Positions 6,559 to 22,333 of a stretch of 22,333 bases of DNA are shown in pieces (position 1 is the first letter of the stretch; every line of letters begins with the position of its first letter). Below the pieces are notes generated by a model, which saw only the letters and a program-made list of their open reading frames with translations, was not told the origin of the DNA and ran no database searches. Location: the IMG/VR virus record IMGVR_UViG_3300032331_000359, positions 1 to 22,333 of that record. One strand, given 5' to 3'. Source of the DNA: a virus. Made by a program: the position numbers and the translations under genes.

Positions 6559-6815
6559 CTCTTAGCTCTTTCTTCCATTAGTTTGATGCGAACCTGTAAA
6601 TCATGCAGGTCTTTGTAAATGTCTTCTTTTAGCTTGTGCCTAGCCTCTGCACTTAACGGACTGTCAGTTGGCACCCCTTGCGGCGTAATCAACGCTGGCA
6701 TCTGGCCTTCAATCTTGGTCAGTCTGGTATTGAATGAGCCAACCTCGCCGAGAAGCCAAGCTAGGCTGGCAACCACTATCGGAATAATCGCCTTTAGTGC
6801 GTCAGCCCAACTCAT
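6555..6815 (-). CDS. small membrane-anchored coiled-coil protein of the lysis cassette
   Basis: This 86-residue protein has one N-terminal membrane segment, AIIPIVVASLAWLLGEVG (9-26), then a soluble helical part with a C-terminal coiled coil (KLKEDIYKDLHDLQVRIKLM). Size and topology fit an inner-membrane spanin or an anti-holin, but no lipobox partner gene is nearby. It overlaps the holin start (ATGA) and follows the gene at 7156 with a TAATG junction. The role in lysis is inferred from position. Confidence 0.65.
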   Translation of the reverse strand: MSWADALKAIIPIVVASLAWLLGEVGSFNTRLTKIEGQMPALITPQGVPTDSPLSAEARHKLKEDIYKDLHDLQVRIKLMEERAKR

Positions 6816-7156
6816 TACAAGCCCTCACCCGGAGTTACGTAAATAGTTCCTGTGCCACTAGCAATAATGGCTGATACATACAACACGGCTGTATTTGTCG
6901 ATTGTTTAGGCGCAGTAAAAATATTCGTTGCATTGTTATGCACAACAAAACCATAGGCAGGAGTTCCAGCCGTAGGAATAACAACGTCATCCGTACTAGC
7001 CGTGCCTAAACGAACAAATATTTCAGCCGCAGTTCCGTTATGAATCCTTACTTGATTAGCAGGGCTGTCAGACAGAATAGCAACTGTGTTTGCTGACGTT
7101 GTGACATTTATCCGAGTGGTTTTACCCATCGGTTGAAACGGAATGTTATTAGCCAT
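6815..7156 (-). CDS. small beta-rich virion or fibre-type protein, paralogue of the 17616 gene
   Basis: This 113-residue protein is rich in Thr, Ala and Val with no membrane segment. It contains NQVRIHNGTAAEIFVRLG (34-51) and ends GTGTIYVTPGEGL. The product at 17616-17945 has NQYRVINNGSVTVFLGYG at the matching place and ends GNATIYITPGDGL. They therefore look like paralogues, probably small decoration or fibre-associated beta-barrel proteins. Oddly, this copy sits beside the lysis genes rather than with the tail genes. No function is proved. Confidence 0.7.
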   Translation of the reverse strand: MANNIPFQPMGKTTRINVTTSANTVAILSDSPANQVRIHNGTAAEIFVRLGTASTDDVVIPTAGTPAYGFVVHNNATNIFTAPKQSTNTAVLYVSAIIASGTGTIYVTPGEGL

Positions 7157-15341: not shown

Positions 15342-17066
15342 TTAAAAAAACTCTAAAAAGTTACCGTAGTTAATAATAACTGGAGCTACATACGTATACG
15401 TAAAAACAATTAATCCGCCGCCAGAAGAATCAACTCCATTTCGCGCCCCAAATCCTTGGGAACCGCCAGATACGTATCCACTAAGGGTGCTATTAAGGCG
15501 CGAACGTCCACCCGCACCACCAGCAACACCGTACACATTTCCTGTTGTAGTAGTCCAAATATTTTCAACCCCGCCGCATCCAGCAAGAAGAAGTATGCTA
15601 TTTGTTGTATTAACCGAACCACCACCGCCGCCAGCACCGTTTGTGCCGTTAGTTGCATTTATTGTTACATTTGCTCCAGAACCAGCACCAGAACCTAACC
15701 TATTATTTCCACCTGCTCCGCCAATACGTGAAGCATAACTTCCTGAGGCAGCACCAGCTGACCCGCCATTTGTTGCACCACCACCACCACCAATACCATT
15801 GTTACTAGATACATTGCCTGTTCCTCCATTGGCACCGGCTCCATTGGGGCCAGCCGCGCCACCGTTACCAGCAACATTAATCGTTACGGCTGCGTTACCG
15901 CCTGAAGCTGCCGTTGAACCAAAAGAAGAACCGGCAGCACCGCCTGTTGTTGTAATCGTTCCTTTTGCTAATACCGTATTAGTTGCTGATGATGGTTTGC
16001 CTGACGATGGATTAACCCACGTATCAGGGTCAGCGCTAGTTACGGTTGAGCCAGCATTTAAATATAATGGGCCGCCCGGAGTCAACGTCAATGTTCTAGT
16101 TGCGTAAGCACCGCCGCCCATAGTTATATTTGTTGGATTTGATGCCCCAACACATTCAACTTTTAAGCTGCTAACACCATAAGGTATGTACCAATACCCT
16201 AAATAAGCATATACGTTATTGTTTACTGTAGTTATAAAAGGAGCTGCGTCAACAAAACTTGCTGACGCGCTTCCTGTAGTATAGGTAAGGACAATTAATC
16301 CTTGAGAACTAGCACTTGTTCCTACATCAGATGTTCTACAAGCACCACCGCCGTATCCTTGACCACCAGTTTGGTTTACTATATTATTACCGCCGCCACC
16401 ACCGCATGGCCCCCATTGCACACCAGCAAAATCAGTCCATATTAAATCTGGGCCACCAGAGCCAGCGGAAGTGGACGGAAAAATAGCTCCACCACCACCA
16501 CCACCATTTGAACCATTACCAGATGCACCGCCGCCAGAACCTCCGCGACCGTTACCGCCAGTAGTTCCAGAACCAGTGCTACCACCATTTGCGCCGCCAC
16601 CACCGTTATCAGGGAAAGCTCCCGCACTTGCTCCAGCACCATTTGGCCCAGCTGCACCACCGCCACCGCCATATACATCAGGAGGTCCTGAAACATAAGT
16701 ACCGCCATTTCCACCTGAATATTTAACATCACCGACACCAGCTGAAGATTGTCCTCCGGGAGCTAGGTCTACGAGAGATGTTACTGGCGTTCCTGCTTTA
16801 GCCAAACAACCATCAGTAGTAGAAGTTGGTGCTACGTTAGATGTTTTGTTAAACCATGTATCAACACCAGAATTACCTACTTGAATATATACAGTCTGTA
16901 GCGGATTAACTGAAATTGCAGTTGTTTTAGAATACGCACCACCACCTGAATTGGCTTGACCACCGGCACCAACACATTCGACTTGCAAAGTACCGCCCGA
17001 TGGAAAATCCGCTGGTATCAAAAATGAACCAGTTCCAGTAGGGATAGCAATGACTGTCGTTGGCAT
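15342..17066 (-). CDS. glycine-rich tail fibre or adhesin with two-fold internal duplication (574 residues)
   Basis: Two related halves (about 12-260 and 292-565) each start with a strand block ending VECVGA, pass a GGGAY motif and a DTW motif, then run through a long glycine-rich region. Each ends in a GLIV(F/L)TYT strand. Such glycine-rich domains in phage fibres are proposed to form packed polyglycine helices that contact host receptors. It is encoded on the late strand after other fibre genes, so it is probably a receptor-binding protein or fibre tip. Antisense open frames over this region are shadows of its GGN-rich codons. Confidence 0.72.
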   Translation of the reverse strand: MPTTVIAIPTGTGSFLIPADFPSGGTLQVECVGAGGQANSGGGAYSKTTAISVNPLQTVYIQVGNSGVDTWFNKTSNVAPTSTTDGCLAKAGTPVTSLVDLAPGGQSSAGVGDVKYSGGNGGTYVSGPPDVYGGGGGAAGPNGAGASAGAFPDNGGGGANGGSTGSGTTGGNGRGGSGGGASGNGSNGGGGGGAIFPSTSAGSGGPDLIWTDFAGVQWGPCGGGGGNNIVNQTGGQGYGGGACRTSDVGTSASSQGLIVLTYTTGSASASFVDAAPFITTVNNNVYAYLGYWYIPYGVSSLKVECVGASNPTNITMGGGAYATRTLTLTPGGPLYLNAGSTVTSADPDTWVNPSSGKPSSATNTVLAKGTITTTGGAAGSSFGSTAASGGNAAVTINVAGNGGAAGPNGAGANGGTGNVSSNNGIGGGGGATNGGSAGAASGSYASRIGGAGGNNRLGSGAGSGANVTINATNGTNGAGGGGGSVNTTNSILLLAGCGGVENIWTTTTGNVYGVAGGAGGRSRLNSTLSGYVSGGSQGFGARNGVDSSGGGLIVFTYTYVAPVIINYGNFLEFF

Positions 17067-17615: not shown

Positions 17616-17945
17616 TTATAGGCCATCGCCGGGCGTAATGTAAATTGTTGCATTGCCACTAGCGGTTATGCCAGTAAAGTAAGCGTTTGGCACAAACGTC
17701 AAAATCTCATCCGTGCTTGGCAAGAGAGGAAACGACGGGCCCGTAGTAGTCACAACATTCGCATTAGTTGTTGCGTTAGCCGCATCTTGACCATAGCCAA
17801 GAAACACTGTTACAGAGCCATTGTTGATGACACGATACTGGTTGCCACCCAATGTAGTAGAAACGCATTGAACGGGCGTAGGAGCCGCTACGTTAGCCGT
17901 AAACGCTACTGTATTGCCGGTTTTTGTAAACGCATTAAGACCCAT
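17616..17945 (-). CDS. small beta-rich fibre-associated protein, paralogue of the 6815 gene
   Basis: This 109-residue protein is rich in Thr, Val and Asn, with NQYRVINNGSVTVFLGYG (35-52) and the C-terminus GNATIYITPGDGL. The same pattern and end are seen in the protein at 6815-7156, so they are probably paralogues from a duplication. It is likely a small beta-barrel domain that decorates the fibre or capsid. It lies between two tail fibre genes and overlaps the gene at 17935 by a few bases. Confidence 0.7.
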   Translation of the reverse strand: MGLNAFTKTGNTVAFTANVAAPTPVQCVSTTLGGNQYRVINNGSVTVFLGYGQDAANATTNANVVTTTGPSFPLLPSTDEILTFVPNAYFTGITASGNATIYITPGDGL

Positions 17946-18314: not shown

Positions 18315-19202
18315 TCACCAAGAAATATTTCCGGTTCCAGCCGTAAACGTATAAATAGTATTTCCACCGCTAGTAGTTTTTGTATAGGTTAATCCAACAG
18401 CAATTGAAGCCAAATCAGAATTTGTTGATGGATAGGCAATAATTACAACGCCAGAACCTCCATTTGCACCAATAGCGTTAGAACCAGTATTACAACTTCC
18501 TCCACCACCGCCACCGCCAGTGTTTGCATCTCCATCATCTCTAGCGGTTGGGTCTTTTGTTCCGTTACCACCGCCACCAGTGCCGCCATTTCCATTTGTG
18601 GTTCCACCAGTGCTGGTAGCACCACCACCACCTCCGGCATAAGTTACCGATGAACCAGTAATTGATGATGCAGTTCCATTTCCGCCATTGCCGCCAATAG
18701 TTGAAGCACCGTCAGAACCTACAGCACTAGCACCACCGCCGCCGCCAGCACCTAAAGCACCATTACCGCCAGCACTACCTTGACTTGGACTTGTGCTAGG
18801 AGTATTTCCTGCTCCAGCCGTACCAGACCTTGTTCCACCGCCGCCAGAGCCACCAGCTACGCCATTGTTGTCAACAGCATTTTGACCTTTTGCGCCACCG
18901 CCACCACCAGCAGAAGTGATTGTGCTAAAAACAGATGCGTTTCCACTGCTTCCAGTAGCAGCAGATACGGCAGCTCCACCAGCACCTACTGTGACTGTAT
19001 AGTTTGTGCTAGGCGTAACGCTAAATCCTGTTCCCGTTCTAAAACCACCCGCACCACCACCACCACCACCAGAACTATTAGAACCATTGTCTAATCGACC
19101 GCCACCAGCTCCACCGCCAGCAACCACTAAGTAATCAACAGCAGAAGGAGCGGCTCCTCCTTTTTTGTATGACGCTATAAGTGATTGAAGTATTCCACTC
19201 AT
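18315..19202 (-). CDS. glycine-rich tail fibre adhesin (295 residues)
   Basis: A 20-residue helical start is followed by VDYLVVAGGGAGGG (23-36). A very glycine-rich domain then runs to about residue 245, with several GGGGG blocks separated by short Ser, Thr and Asn segments. The end is GVVIIAYPS and a beta strand region. Proteins with LVVAGGGAGG and polyglycine blocks are known as phage tail fibre adhesins whose glycine helices bind host surface molecules. It is encoded just after another fibre gene, so it is probably a receptor-binding protein. Confidence 0.78.
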   Translation of the reverse strand: MSGILQSLIASYKKGGAAPSAVDYLVVAGGGAGGGRLDNGSNSSGGGGGGAGGFRTGTGFSVTPSTNYTVTVGAGGAAVSAATGSSGNASVFSTITSAGGGGGAKGQNAVDNNGVAGGSGGGGTRSGTAGAGNTPSTSPSQGSAGGNGALGAGGGGGASAVGSDGASTIGGNGGNGTASSITGSSVTYAGGGGGATSTGGTTNGNGGTGGGGNGTKDPTARDDGDANTGGGGGGGSCNTGSNAIGANGGSGVVIIAYPSTNSDLASIAVGLTYTKTTSGGNTIYTFTAGTGNISW

Positions 19203-19705
19203 TAGGTCAACCCGTTACCAGAAATAATCCAAGTAGTAGAAGTCATCTTTACAGCAGTTGCTATTCCATACTGAGCAAGCGTTCTATTGCCTGTAGTACC
19301 AGCAGAAGACAAATACATCGTGTCAGTGGTAACGGAAATAGTTACCGCATTAGCAGACATATTAATAAACGTAATAGCCGCACCTAAACCAAATGCTACG
19401 TTAGAGTTGGCTGGTATTGTGTACGTTGCAGCAGCTTGTCCGGTAGGGTGATACAAATGCCTACCACTATCTGCTAACACTACGTTGTAACTAGCGTTTT
19501 GTGAGTTTTGAGGAATCGAAAGATAACCAACAGTATTGCTGCCGTCTACCGTGCAATTTCCAATAGTAATGTTGCTTAACGTAGTAACAGTATTTCCAAG
19601 TTGAATGGATGTGTTACCAAGAGTTATAGTTGAAGCAAAGTTGCTGTCTAATTGCGACAACGGAATAGCCGATGTAGCCGTAGCAAAAGTATATGGAACC
19701 GTCAT
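19202..19705 (-). CDS. tail fibre protein (167 residues)
   Basis: It starts MTVPYTFATATSAIPLSQLD and continues with NF-type and TLGNTSIQLGNTVTTLSN repeats (28-45), a pattern I recognise from many phage and prophage tail fibre proteins, where it precedes the distal domain. A beta-rich C-terminal half (about 60-167) includes YTIPANSNVAFGLGA, which resembles small fibre-tip or collar domains. Here it is a short separate gene directly after the nozzle-like protein, so it may anchor the fibre to the tail. Confidence 0.78.
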   Translation of the reverse strand: MTVPYTFATATSAIPLSQLDSNFASTITLGNTSIQLGNTVTTLSNITIGNCTVDGSNTVGYLSIPQNSQNASYNVVLADSGRHLYHPTGQAAATYTIPANSNVAFGLGAAITFINMSANAVTISVTTDTMYLSSAGTTGNRTLAQYGIATAVKMTSTTWIISGNGLT

Positions 19706-19706
19706 C

Positions 19707-21692
19707 TTAGAACCTCACTCGCAATTCATGTTCGTATTCAAAACCGTTGTAAACAATTCCGGGACCGGATGATGTAACGGTCATACCTAAATATTTTCCG
19801 TATTGTTTTGCGTCTGTTTTATATAAAGTGTAACCACCTGTACCGCCAGACCAAGGTATTTCAACACTGCTATTGTTTGTCCAAGGAATAATAGTAGAAA
19901 AATTATTAATCCATTCAATAGTTGTTCCCAAAGAAACGCTATTGCTTGAACCAGTTTCGGAATCTATCGTTACATTAATAGTTGCCGCATTTTGCAATGT
20001 GGCTTCAATACCAATCTTTAACGCTTGCTTGGTCCGAATTGGGTCTTTCATTGGGTTCAAAGAAGTCTGAACATAACTGTTTATTGATGCCGTTGTGTTC
20101 GCGTACATCTTCACGCATGAAGTACCATCGGTTCCGTACAGAGTAATCCTTCCACCGACCGGAACAGATACTACATTTTTTAAACTGTTTCCCGCGCTTG
20201 TGAAGAACCATTTCTTTTCAAAAAATATAGCTTGTATGTATCTGTTATCACTAGATGTTCCTAAACCACCCGTGTATCTAAAATTAAACGCAGAACACAA
20301 GATGTTATTTAAAAGAACCTGACCGCCAGTAGTAGTGCCAGTAGTAAAGTCAACATTAGGAAATATGCCGTCCAAAGAGTCAGAAATCTTTGACGTCGTA
20401 GAGCCAACAAGCGCATAAACACCGTAATCATTCATAAACAGCACAGAACGGAAGTACGGGAAAATGGCATACGCCAATTTAGTACCTACCGATGCGCTGA
20501 CGTTAGTGTTAGTAAATAAGGTAAGACCAGAAGACGTAACACGAACATCAGAAAACACGTTGATGCTATCGTCGCCAAAAATGTATAAAAAGTTATTAGC
20601 TGACAATAACTGAATAATGTTTCCGTGCAATGTAGCGTCTGTTAAAGACACACCACCCGCAGACACCGTCACAAAGTCATTGTACGAACCTGCCGCTGAA
20701 TAATAAATAGTCCTGCCGTTAGCTATCCAAACACGACCAGAGAACGACTGAATAGCAGAATTGGTTCCTGTGTTAATGATGGCTTTAGCCGTAGCGTTAG
20801 AACCGCCACCGCCAGTAATAGCTACGGTGATGTTTGCTTGGTTTGTATAATTAGAACCATTGTTTGTCATTACGACTTGAGTAACAATGTTTCCAGCAAT
20901 AATTGCTTGACCGGCTGCGTTTGTTCCACCGCCACCAGTAATGGTTACAACAATGTTAGAAGCATTTGTATATCCAGTTCCAGTGTTAGTTACCAAAACC
21001 GATACAGTTCCTTGAGCAAAGGTTGTTGTGGAAGCCACCGCATTTGCATTAGCTCCACCGCCACCGTTAAAAGTTACCGTTGGAGAAGACGTATAACCAG
21101 AGCCAGTTTCGGTCAAAGTTATAGAAGAAACGGCATTAGCTGTAATCGTAGCAACGGCTGTAGCTTGTATTCCGTTTGTCTGATTTGGTGCAGAAATAAT
21201 TACTGCTGGAGCAGACGTATAACCTGTTCCGCCTCTAACTATACCTATGGTTCCCACAGAACCAATTGAAATTAAATTAACAGCATCCCACGTAAAGTAA
21301 CCTTTAACTGGGTCAATAATCAAAACCCTGTCATTTTTCCACTGACTAATATTTATGCCGCCAGTAGTTGTAAATGTTCCAGCAGCAGCTAACGTGCCTT
21401 TGACATTGGTTGTCAGGTTTACGTATTCGCAGCTTCCATCATTTTGGAAAGCAATTAAATAATCAGTAATGCCAATGTTTGCTGAAAAGAAATTTACAAC
21501 TGTATTAGAAAACGTAACGCTTCCAACAGCATCATAAGTAGGCGTAATCTTTAAATTGCCATAGCCAATAGGCATAGCATTTTCAAGCCAGAAGAATTCA
21601 TCGTTATCAATAGCCGTGCGGTTAGCTTTCGTGTTGACGCCACGAAAGTTCTTAACGACTTCATACGATTTTTTTTGTTCTGCCGCTGCCAT
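19707..21692 (-). CDS. tail nozzle or stabilisation-like protein with tandem repeat insertion (661 residues)
   Basis: The N-terminal part (about 10-145) has FRGVNTKANRTAIDNDEFFW and ENAMPIGYGNLKITP, then a TDYLIAFQNDGS and NDRVLIIDPVKGYFTWD segment, as in podovirus tail proteins of the beta-propeller type. The C-terminal part (about 314-661) continues with GRVWIANGRTIYYSA, NNFLYIFGDDSINVFSD and LFMNDYGVYALVG. Residues about 148-305 are four extra repeats. It probably forms the lower tail tube through which DNA leaves. The exact family (nozzle or P22 gp10-like) is not certain. Confidence 0.7.
   Translation of the reverse strand: MAAAEQKKSYEVVKNFRGVNTKANRTAIDNDEFFWLENAMPIGYGNLKITPTYDAVGSVTFSNTVVNFFSANIGITDYLIAFQNDGSCEYVNLTTNVKGTLAAAGTFTTTGGINISQWKNDRVLIIDPVKGYFTWDAVNLISIGSVGTIGIVRGGTGYTSAPAVIISAPNQTNGIQATAVATITANAVSSITLTETGSGYTSSPTVTFNGGGGANANAVASTTTFAQGTVSVLVTNTGTGYTNASNIVVTITGGGGTNAAGQAIIAGNIVTQVVMTNNGSNYTNQANITVAITGGGGSNATAKAIINTGTNSAIQSFSGRVWIANGRTIYYSAAGSYNDFVTVSAGGVSLTDATLHGNIIQLLSANNFLYIFGDDSINVFSDVRVTSSGLTLFTNTNVSASVGTKLAYAIFPYFRSVLFMNDYGVYALVGSTTSKISDSLDGIFPNVDFTTGTTTGGQVLLNNILCSAFNFRYTGGLGTSSDNRYIQAIFFEKKWFFTSAGNSLKNVVSVPVGGRITLYGTDGTSCVKMYANTTASINSYVQTSLNPMKDPIRTKQALKIGIEATLQNAATINVTIDSETGSSNSVSLGTTIEWINNFSTIIPWTNNSSVEIPWSGGTGGYTLYKTDAKQYGKYLGMTVTSSGPGIVYNGFEYEHELRVRF
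20778..21251 (-). repeat. four tandem G(T/S)GYT repeats in the nozzle-like protein
   Basis: Residues about 148-305 contain four units of about 40 residues with GTGYTSAP, GSGYTSSP, GTGYTNAS and GSNYTNQA near their starts. The units then run through V-x-I or V-x-F strands, and the last three carry a GGGG turn. The repeats look like small beta domains inserted in the beta-propeller-type protein between WDAVNL and SGRVWIANG. They may face outward and bind glycans, which is inference. Confidence 0.72.
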
Positions 21693-21695
21693 GAC

Positions 21696-22333
21696 CTAGT
21701 ACGCTCTAGAGTATGGGTCTGACATCCTTCTAGTGTAGATGGACGCCTGAACCGCTTGGATTTGTTGTTTGTACTGCCCTAAATAAATCTCAGCCTCACC
21801 AAACGACTGTTCATAATATTTAGCAAGATAAGCAGCGTAAAACTTGACGGTACTAGAAAACGGTTCGTTAATCGAATCAGCGTCAGATAGATTCACTAAA
21901 TCTGTTGGCAAGATAACCGTATCTAAGTCAATTACATAAGCTATGTCAGGAACGGGTCCAATATATATTTGAGATTGCCCATAAATACTAAAGGCAACCG
22001 GCGTTCCGATGCGGTTCTGCCAATAACGCAACTGTGCGTTAAAGTCAGTCCAAGGCATATACCGCAACGGTATTCTGGAATTTCCCCAATAGAGATTAAT
22101 GTTGATGACGTCTAGAGTTAAGTTTCCAGACGGCAAGCAAGAATAATTAATTAATTCTGACGGACCGGCATACTGAACTGTAGCCGTGCCGCTAGTAAAC
22201 GGTGTGCTAGGTGGGTAAACATTGTTTGCGGAAGGATAATTAGGAGCATCACTTAAAACACCGCCAACAGTTACCGCATAAATAAAGATATTGGAAAATA
22301 CGTAATCACCCGCACTTACAGTTAAGCCGGATG
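21696..22333 (-). CDS. tail adaptor-like or head-tail connector protein (partial, 5' end beyond the window)
   Basis: The frame is open from the window end down to TAG 21696-21698, about 211 residues, so the true start lies beyond 22333; a TTG at 22136 is only internal. The segment includes LRYMPWTDFNAQLRYWQN, then GTPVAFSIYGQSQIYIGPVPD, and ends with KFYAAYLAKYYEQSFGEAEIYLGQYKQQI. A Trp/Asp-rich block, a Tyr-Gly...PVPD strand and a final helical part are typical of small podovirus connector or tail adaptor proteins. Lying just before the nozzle-like gene supports that. Function is inferred. Confidence 0.6.
   Translation of the reverse strand, partial: SGLTVSAGDYVFSNIFIYAVTVGGVLSDAPNYPSANNVYPPSTPFTSGTATVQYAGPSELINYSCLPSGNLTLDVININLYWGNSRIPLRYMPWTDFNAQLRYWQNRIGTPVAFSIYGQSQIYIGPVPDIAYVIDLDTVILPTDLVNLSDADSINEPFSSTVKFYAAYLAKYYEQSFGEAEIYLGQYKQQIQAVQASIYTRRMSDPYSRAY

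Follow-up and report, generated by a model that had tools for sequence, protein, structure and literature searches.

What a tandem repeat block contributes to a phage tail protein is the question raised by this locus. The window, that is the whole stretch of DNA that was analysed, is a 22,333-base record of a freshwater virus of bacteria, and a gene on its minus strand encodes a 661-residue protein interrupted by four repeats of the motif GxGYT. The gene order in the window is adaptor, nozzle, fibre-like, and the SU10_adaptor gene and the fibre-like gene directly flank the nozzle gene. The matches in the genome collection were three metagenome-bin contigs with the labels Saccharibacteria, Bacteroidetes and beta proteobacterium, and thus indicate no host. 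The features on which the argument depends are the following.

21696..22331, minus strand: tail adaptor gene upstream of the nozzle gene, its 5' end beyond the window (Pfam SU10_adaptor PF24175, 34.1 bits, cut-off 27)
19707..21692, minus strand: tail nozzle protein gene, 661 aa (open reading frame; predicted P22 gp10 / T7 gp12 / SU10 gp17 fold)
21255..21692, minus strand: N-terminal platform strands and, by strand count, propeller blades 1-2, residues 1-146 (AlphaFold2 strands; aligned to repeat-less nozzles after removal of the insert)
21135..21260, minus strand: GxGYT repeat 1, residues 145-186 (repeat alignment)
21012..21134, minus strand: GxGYT repeat 2, residues 187-227 (repeat alignment)
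20889..21011, minus strand: GxGYT repeat 3, residues 228-268 (repeat alignment)
20766..20888, minus strand: GxGYT repeat 4, residues 269-309 (repeat alignment)
19707..20756, minus strand: residues 313-661 and the stop codon, by strand count propeller blades 3-7, with the C-terminal platform (AlphaFold2 strands, profile comparison, alignment)
19202..19705, minus strand: fibre-like gene downstream of the nozzle gene (N-terminus conserved in relatives, length highly variable)

Elsewhere in the window two far-apart proteins of about 110 aa (6815-7156 and 17616-17945) were found to have a common C-terminal motif, in which 13 of 21 residues are identical. Two large glycine-rich proteins are also encoded (15342-17066 and 18315-19202); the second matches Gly_rich_2 (95.4 bits, cut-off 24.3), and the internal halves of the first are alike by eye.

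The initial annotation had called the 661-residue product a tail nozzle-like beta-propeller protein and had suggested structure prediction of the whole chain. The AlphaFold2 model (pLDDT 79.3, with ten-residue blocks of the insert at 86-93; pTM 0.78; 40 aligned sequences) agrees with this assignment, since its predicted fold is that of a nozzle. Compared with the solved nozzles by VIA-align it gave Z scores of 15-21 over 401-473 residues, namely 20.7 for the Pa223 tail protein (439 aligned, rmsd 3.0), 19.2 for SU10, 18.9 for VP1, 18.8 for crAss001 and 18.6 for P22 gp10, and a Foldseek search with the full model agreed with the podovirus tail nozzle match. P22 gp10 and the Pa223 tail hub (head closure Hc3), with 471 and 512 residues respectively against the 661 of the window nozzle, are counted as the best structural matches of the core. 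Within the viral structure library the closest entry was A0A6J5L2T0, a protein of an uncultured Caudovirales phage named Bacteriophage P22, Gp10, DNA-stabilising, which belongs to the same family by its 48% identity and full-length structure match; with 738 aa it is longer than the window nozzle, a length that suggests six repeats. Sequence-only matches to named nozzle families were weaker than the structure match: the C-terminal half weakly matched phrog_578, head closure Hc3, in PHROG (E 0.0022), profile comparison with four gp10-like proteins reached E 7e-5 (probability 63), and the PDB sequence search with the whole 661-aa protein returned chance matches only. Based on the predicted structure, the protein is a podovirus tail nozzle with the fold of P22 gp10, T7 gp12 and SU10 gp17. 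Its core would be composed of a seven-bladed propeller and a platform, the blades being counted from the strands of the model.

The repeats themselves are well defined. The GxGYT anchors begin at residues 155, 197, 238 and 279, the units are about 41 aa long, and the identity between the four of them is 24-51%. Their all-pairs alignment score, summed, was 411, whereas 1000 within-unit shuffles gave a mean of 185 (sd 15) and a maximum of 252, thus the four repeats of about 40 residues first annotated at 20778-21251 are borne out. Those coordinates correspond to residues 148-305, and the true block extends a few residues further at both ends. The repeat spacing, the glycines of GxGYT and the tyrosine are conserved across the relatives, and the insert modelled alone gave regular strands with a mean pLDDT of 92.8 and a pTM of 0.85.

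Whether the block is an insertion or a part of the propeller was addressed with four distant nozzles as the repeat-less comparison set (MW202554, the IMG/VR contig L167, HMO-2011 and CRP-207), against which the repeat profile gave no match below E 0.02. Upon deletion of residues 147-312 the alignment to these nozzles covered 444 columns instead of 313, with a score of 57.6 instead of 53.5, and it runs end to end through the junction, with a difference of five residues there. When 17 distinct deletions equal in length to this one were compared, those at residues 146 and 151 scored highest (57.6). The gain from the exact cut was modest, as near-full-length alignments were likewise obtained, with scores of 53.6-53.8, from cuts that overlap the insert on its N-terminal side. 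In the AlphaFold2 model the insert is preceded by two four-stranded groups and followed by five groups, and by strand count, rather than by coordinates, the insert would be placed between propeller blades 2 and 3. As the repeat-less nozzles align across the empty site, the repeats do interrupt the protein between conserved segments, as had been claimed, and the block as an integral propeller blade is rejected. The description of the repeats as extra is only partly right: they are an insertion relative to the distant nozzles, but not extra among close relatives, where 298 of 298 carry the block. It had also been envisaged that all relatives might have the same repeats as an integral part of the propeller, and half of this was found, the block being always present in close relatives and absent only in the distant nozzles.

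The relatives analysed were the best 80 of 535-596 confirmed places per scan, and other repeat numbers are possible in more distant ones. Altogether 308 loci were collected, 303 had a nozzle ORF, and the 298 with a recognisable start were counted (L103, L275, L280, L281 and L294 were left out); some loci are the same contig twice, and the unique proteins numbered 242, with 241 having the full C-terminus (206 four-repeat, 35 six-repeat). The repeat number, which the initial annotation had proposed to determine in relatives, was four in 254 and six in 44 of the 298 among the matches listed, and an odd number was found in none of these 298. The insert is accordingly either 178-192 or 258-266 aa long in the 285 proteins with both anchors. 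A recent accessory of one phage is rejected, because every counted relative carries the block. On the tree of the C-terminal core (228 proteins, 193 with four and 35 with six repeats) the repeat number changed at least six times, and three of these changes are forced by well-supported branches. The extra units of most six-repeat forms match the repeats in the order 1,1,2,2,3,4, an order that simple duplication of one pair would not produce. In six-repeat loci (L099, L125 and others) a pair seems to have been placed within the first one.

The mean distance among the relatives was 0.391 for the insert, 0.375 for the N-terminal part and 0.287 for the C-terminal part, and the distances of the insert correlated with those of the C-terminal core at 0.81, compared with 0.90 between the N- and C-terminal parts. 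By these sequence distances the insert is co-inherited with the nozzle and not hypervariable, unlike a swapped receptor-binding tip.

Domains inserted in a nozzle propeller are known from other phages. Four Ig-like nozzle domains stand between blades 2 and 3 in SU10 (PMC9509320), the Ig-like domain IG1 is situated between the same blades in crAss001 (PMC10172136), and the nozzle tip of T7 arises from a loop of blade 3 (PMC6702177). SU10 gp17 (Kuravirus) is similar to the window nozzle in its fold and in the insertion between blades 2 and 3 (here by strand count), but its Ig-like inserts are devoid of the GxGYT repeat, the best independent E value with the repeat profile being 0.58. T7 gp12 and the crAss001 muzzle gp44 are likewise seven-bladed propellers, into which additional domains are built at blade 3 or at blades 2/3; the T7 insert is a beta-barrel tip and those of crAss001 are Ig-like and crass-fold domains, and neither consists of GxGYT repeats. 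The nozzle-tip reading of the block was adopted because SU10, crAss001 and T7 carry inserts at the same or a nearby site. Taken as a whole, the explanation that the block is the tip module of a podovirus tail nozzle, made of a pair domain that serves as a general building block of phage virions, seems probable to us. The fold class, the insertion site, the fixed presence in close relatives, the even repeat number and the shared pair domain were all obtained by computation.

According to this explanation the nozzle would form a ring under the adaptor, probably a hexamer as in SU10 and T7, which closes the DNA channel. The polypeptide would leave the propeller after blade 2, fold into two beta domains of about 80 residues with two GxGYT repeats each (three domains in the six-repeat relatives), and re-enter the propeller at blade 3. 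At the distal side, the six copies might lengthen, shape or close off the tail channel, and the insert domains may be some of the earliest parts to contact the cell envelope, roles that are also proposed for the inserts of SU10, T7 and crAss001. The hexamer, the location at the tip and the contact with the envelope are drawn from the structures of these three phages. The earlier statement that the insertion would project from the tail has the same precedent in its favour, as such inserts are found at the distal tail tip in these phages (PMC9509320, PMC6702177, PMC10172136).

The insert could alternatively be a dock holding the fibres encoded next to the nozzle, a function that had been suggested from the gene neighbourhood; the fibre-like gene does adjoin the nozzle gene in the window. 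Nozzle domain 4 of SU10 touches a short tail fibre (PMC9509320) and T7 possesses a separate fibre dock (PMC6702177); the main docks are, however, other elements, a blade-1 loop in SU10 and a separate domain in T7. Furthermore, the N-terminus of the fibre-like protein, shared by 184 of 192 proteins in one cluster that includes the window copy, is conserved beside four-repeat (157 of 184) and six-repeat (26 of 184) nozzles alike, thus repeat number and fibre anchor do not vary together. We consider a fibre dock unlikely.

The same fibre-like protein bears on the suggestion that the insert binds glycans, i.e. that it is a receptor-binding domain projecting sideways from the nozzle and helping to choose the host. 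Exposed tandem beta domains at a tail tip would be plausible binders, and the insert is, by the small margin given above, the most variable third of the protein. Nevertheless, its distances follow those of the C-terminal core and lack the hypervariability of swapped receptor-binding tips, and the next gene is a better candidate: with its conserved N-terminus and a length between 143 and 983 aa it would pair a constant anchor with distal parts that are exchanged, as expected of a swapped receptor-binding tip. Pfam and NCBIfam searches with the insert gave no match and hence no carbohydrate-binding family, and its fold matches were weak, with a best Z of 2.8. Glycan binding by the insert is therefore rather improbable in our judgement.

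The preferred reading, a nozzle-tip module, includes the proposal that the repeats occur as a domain in other virion proteins as well. The tail sheath of Stenotrophomonas phage IME-SM1 has exactly two repeats, with 53% identity over 80 aa to nozzle repeats 1+2, which is higher than the 34% between repeats 1+2 and 3+4 within the nozzle itself; the alignment score of the sheath pair, 191, was not approached by any of 2000 composition-preserving shuffles, the highest of which reached 79. A pair in the tail-fibre-like protein of cyanophage S-RSM4 showed 55% identity over 64 aa. The carriers in IME-SM1 and S-RSM4 contain the same two-repeat unit, but these proteins are unrelated to nozzles. The sheaths of IME-SM1 (L309:2272-4326) and Xanthomonas phage X1 (L313:2254-4230) have one pair each, apparently as an inserted domain, and separate pairs occur in the fibre or wedge proteins of S-RSM4 and S-H9-1. 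A neck protein of cyanophage SynMITS9220M01 (L315:2154-3593) has three to four repeats, which fits a match to phrog_460, head closure Hc2.

As a PHROG query the repeat block hit 14 families at E 1e-3 or better, mostly called structural, baseplate or fibre, where the weak matches are possibly compositional, the repeats being rich in G, T, A and S. With tblastn at E 10 the insert found 143 records, mostly cyanophages and with weak E-values, 11 of which were checked with the repeat profile; the 23 arrays in these 11 loci consist of two repeats (12 arrays), five (3), six (3), seven (2), one (2) or three (1). On this sequence evidence, the GxGYT pair appears to be a promiscuous phage virion domain, present in sheath, neck, fibre and baseplate proteins of unrelated phages. 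That the repeats are low-complexity sequence without specific structure, domain-like in appearance only, could be argued from their richness in G, T, A, S and N and from the filtered tblastn at E 1e-5, which gave only the two closest GenBank phages, but this is very unlikely and we reject it in view of the repeat score, the confident regular strands of the insert model, the conserved spacing, glycines and tyrosine, and the sheath pair score far above its shuffles.

The folding unit is probably a pair of repeats, about 80 aa, since the nozzles have even repeat numbers only, the covariation pattern points in this direction and each weak structure match spans one pair (residues 5-81 or 86-169 of the insert model). 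Among the top 84 covarying pairs from 206 four-repeat inserts, 16 linked repeats 1-2, 14 linked repeats 3-4 and 4 linked repeats 2-3, and both intra-pair values were above 2-3 in 20 of 20 subsamples; the covariation is weak, however, with 11 each for repeats 1-3 and 1-4, which blurs the pair signal at an effective number of 46 sequences. The six-repeat forms (36 sequences, effective 9.8) are too thin to use in this respect. While the repeat number is even in the nozzles of close relatives, the cyanophage arrays include odd sizes, so that the restriction to even numbers either does not hold in general or was obscured by degenerate units that escaped recognition.

Additional searches were carried out for a known family, fold or description. 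PDB sequence searches with the insert and with the pair profile produced chance matches only, a Foldseek search with the isolated insert gave E values of 0.63 or higher, and the best VIA-align rows, some of them to Ig-like chains, exclude no fold. In the literature on the motif, on nozzle inserts, on Menderavirus sheaths and on cyanophage repeats, of which figures were not covered and PMC only partially, no published description of a GxGYT repeat was found. We regard the chances as even that the pair is an undescribed virion domain, some 80 residues long and with a fold of its own, which moves among nozzle, sheath, neck, baseplate and fibre proteins like the Ig-like domains of phages, and that, with two repeats as one folding unit, nozzle inserts grow by whole domains only, from four to six repeats.

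The architecture, domains inserted in a nozzle propeller, is already known, and what differs here is the GxGYT filling. Additional domains seem commonly to enter phage nozzles at the opening between blades 2 and 3, where unrelated modules are found in SU10, crAss001 and T7 (at blade 3 in the latter), and the family of the window adds another kind of module at this site. The fixed even repeat number of the nozzles makes the folding unit directly testable. If the pair domain is indeed common to sheath, neck, baseplate, fibre and nozzle proteins, it would provide both a name and an object for testing to a repeat that is annotated only as 'structural protein' in many cyanophages.
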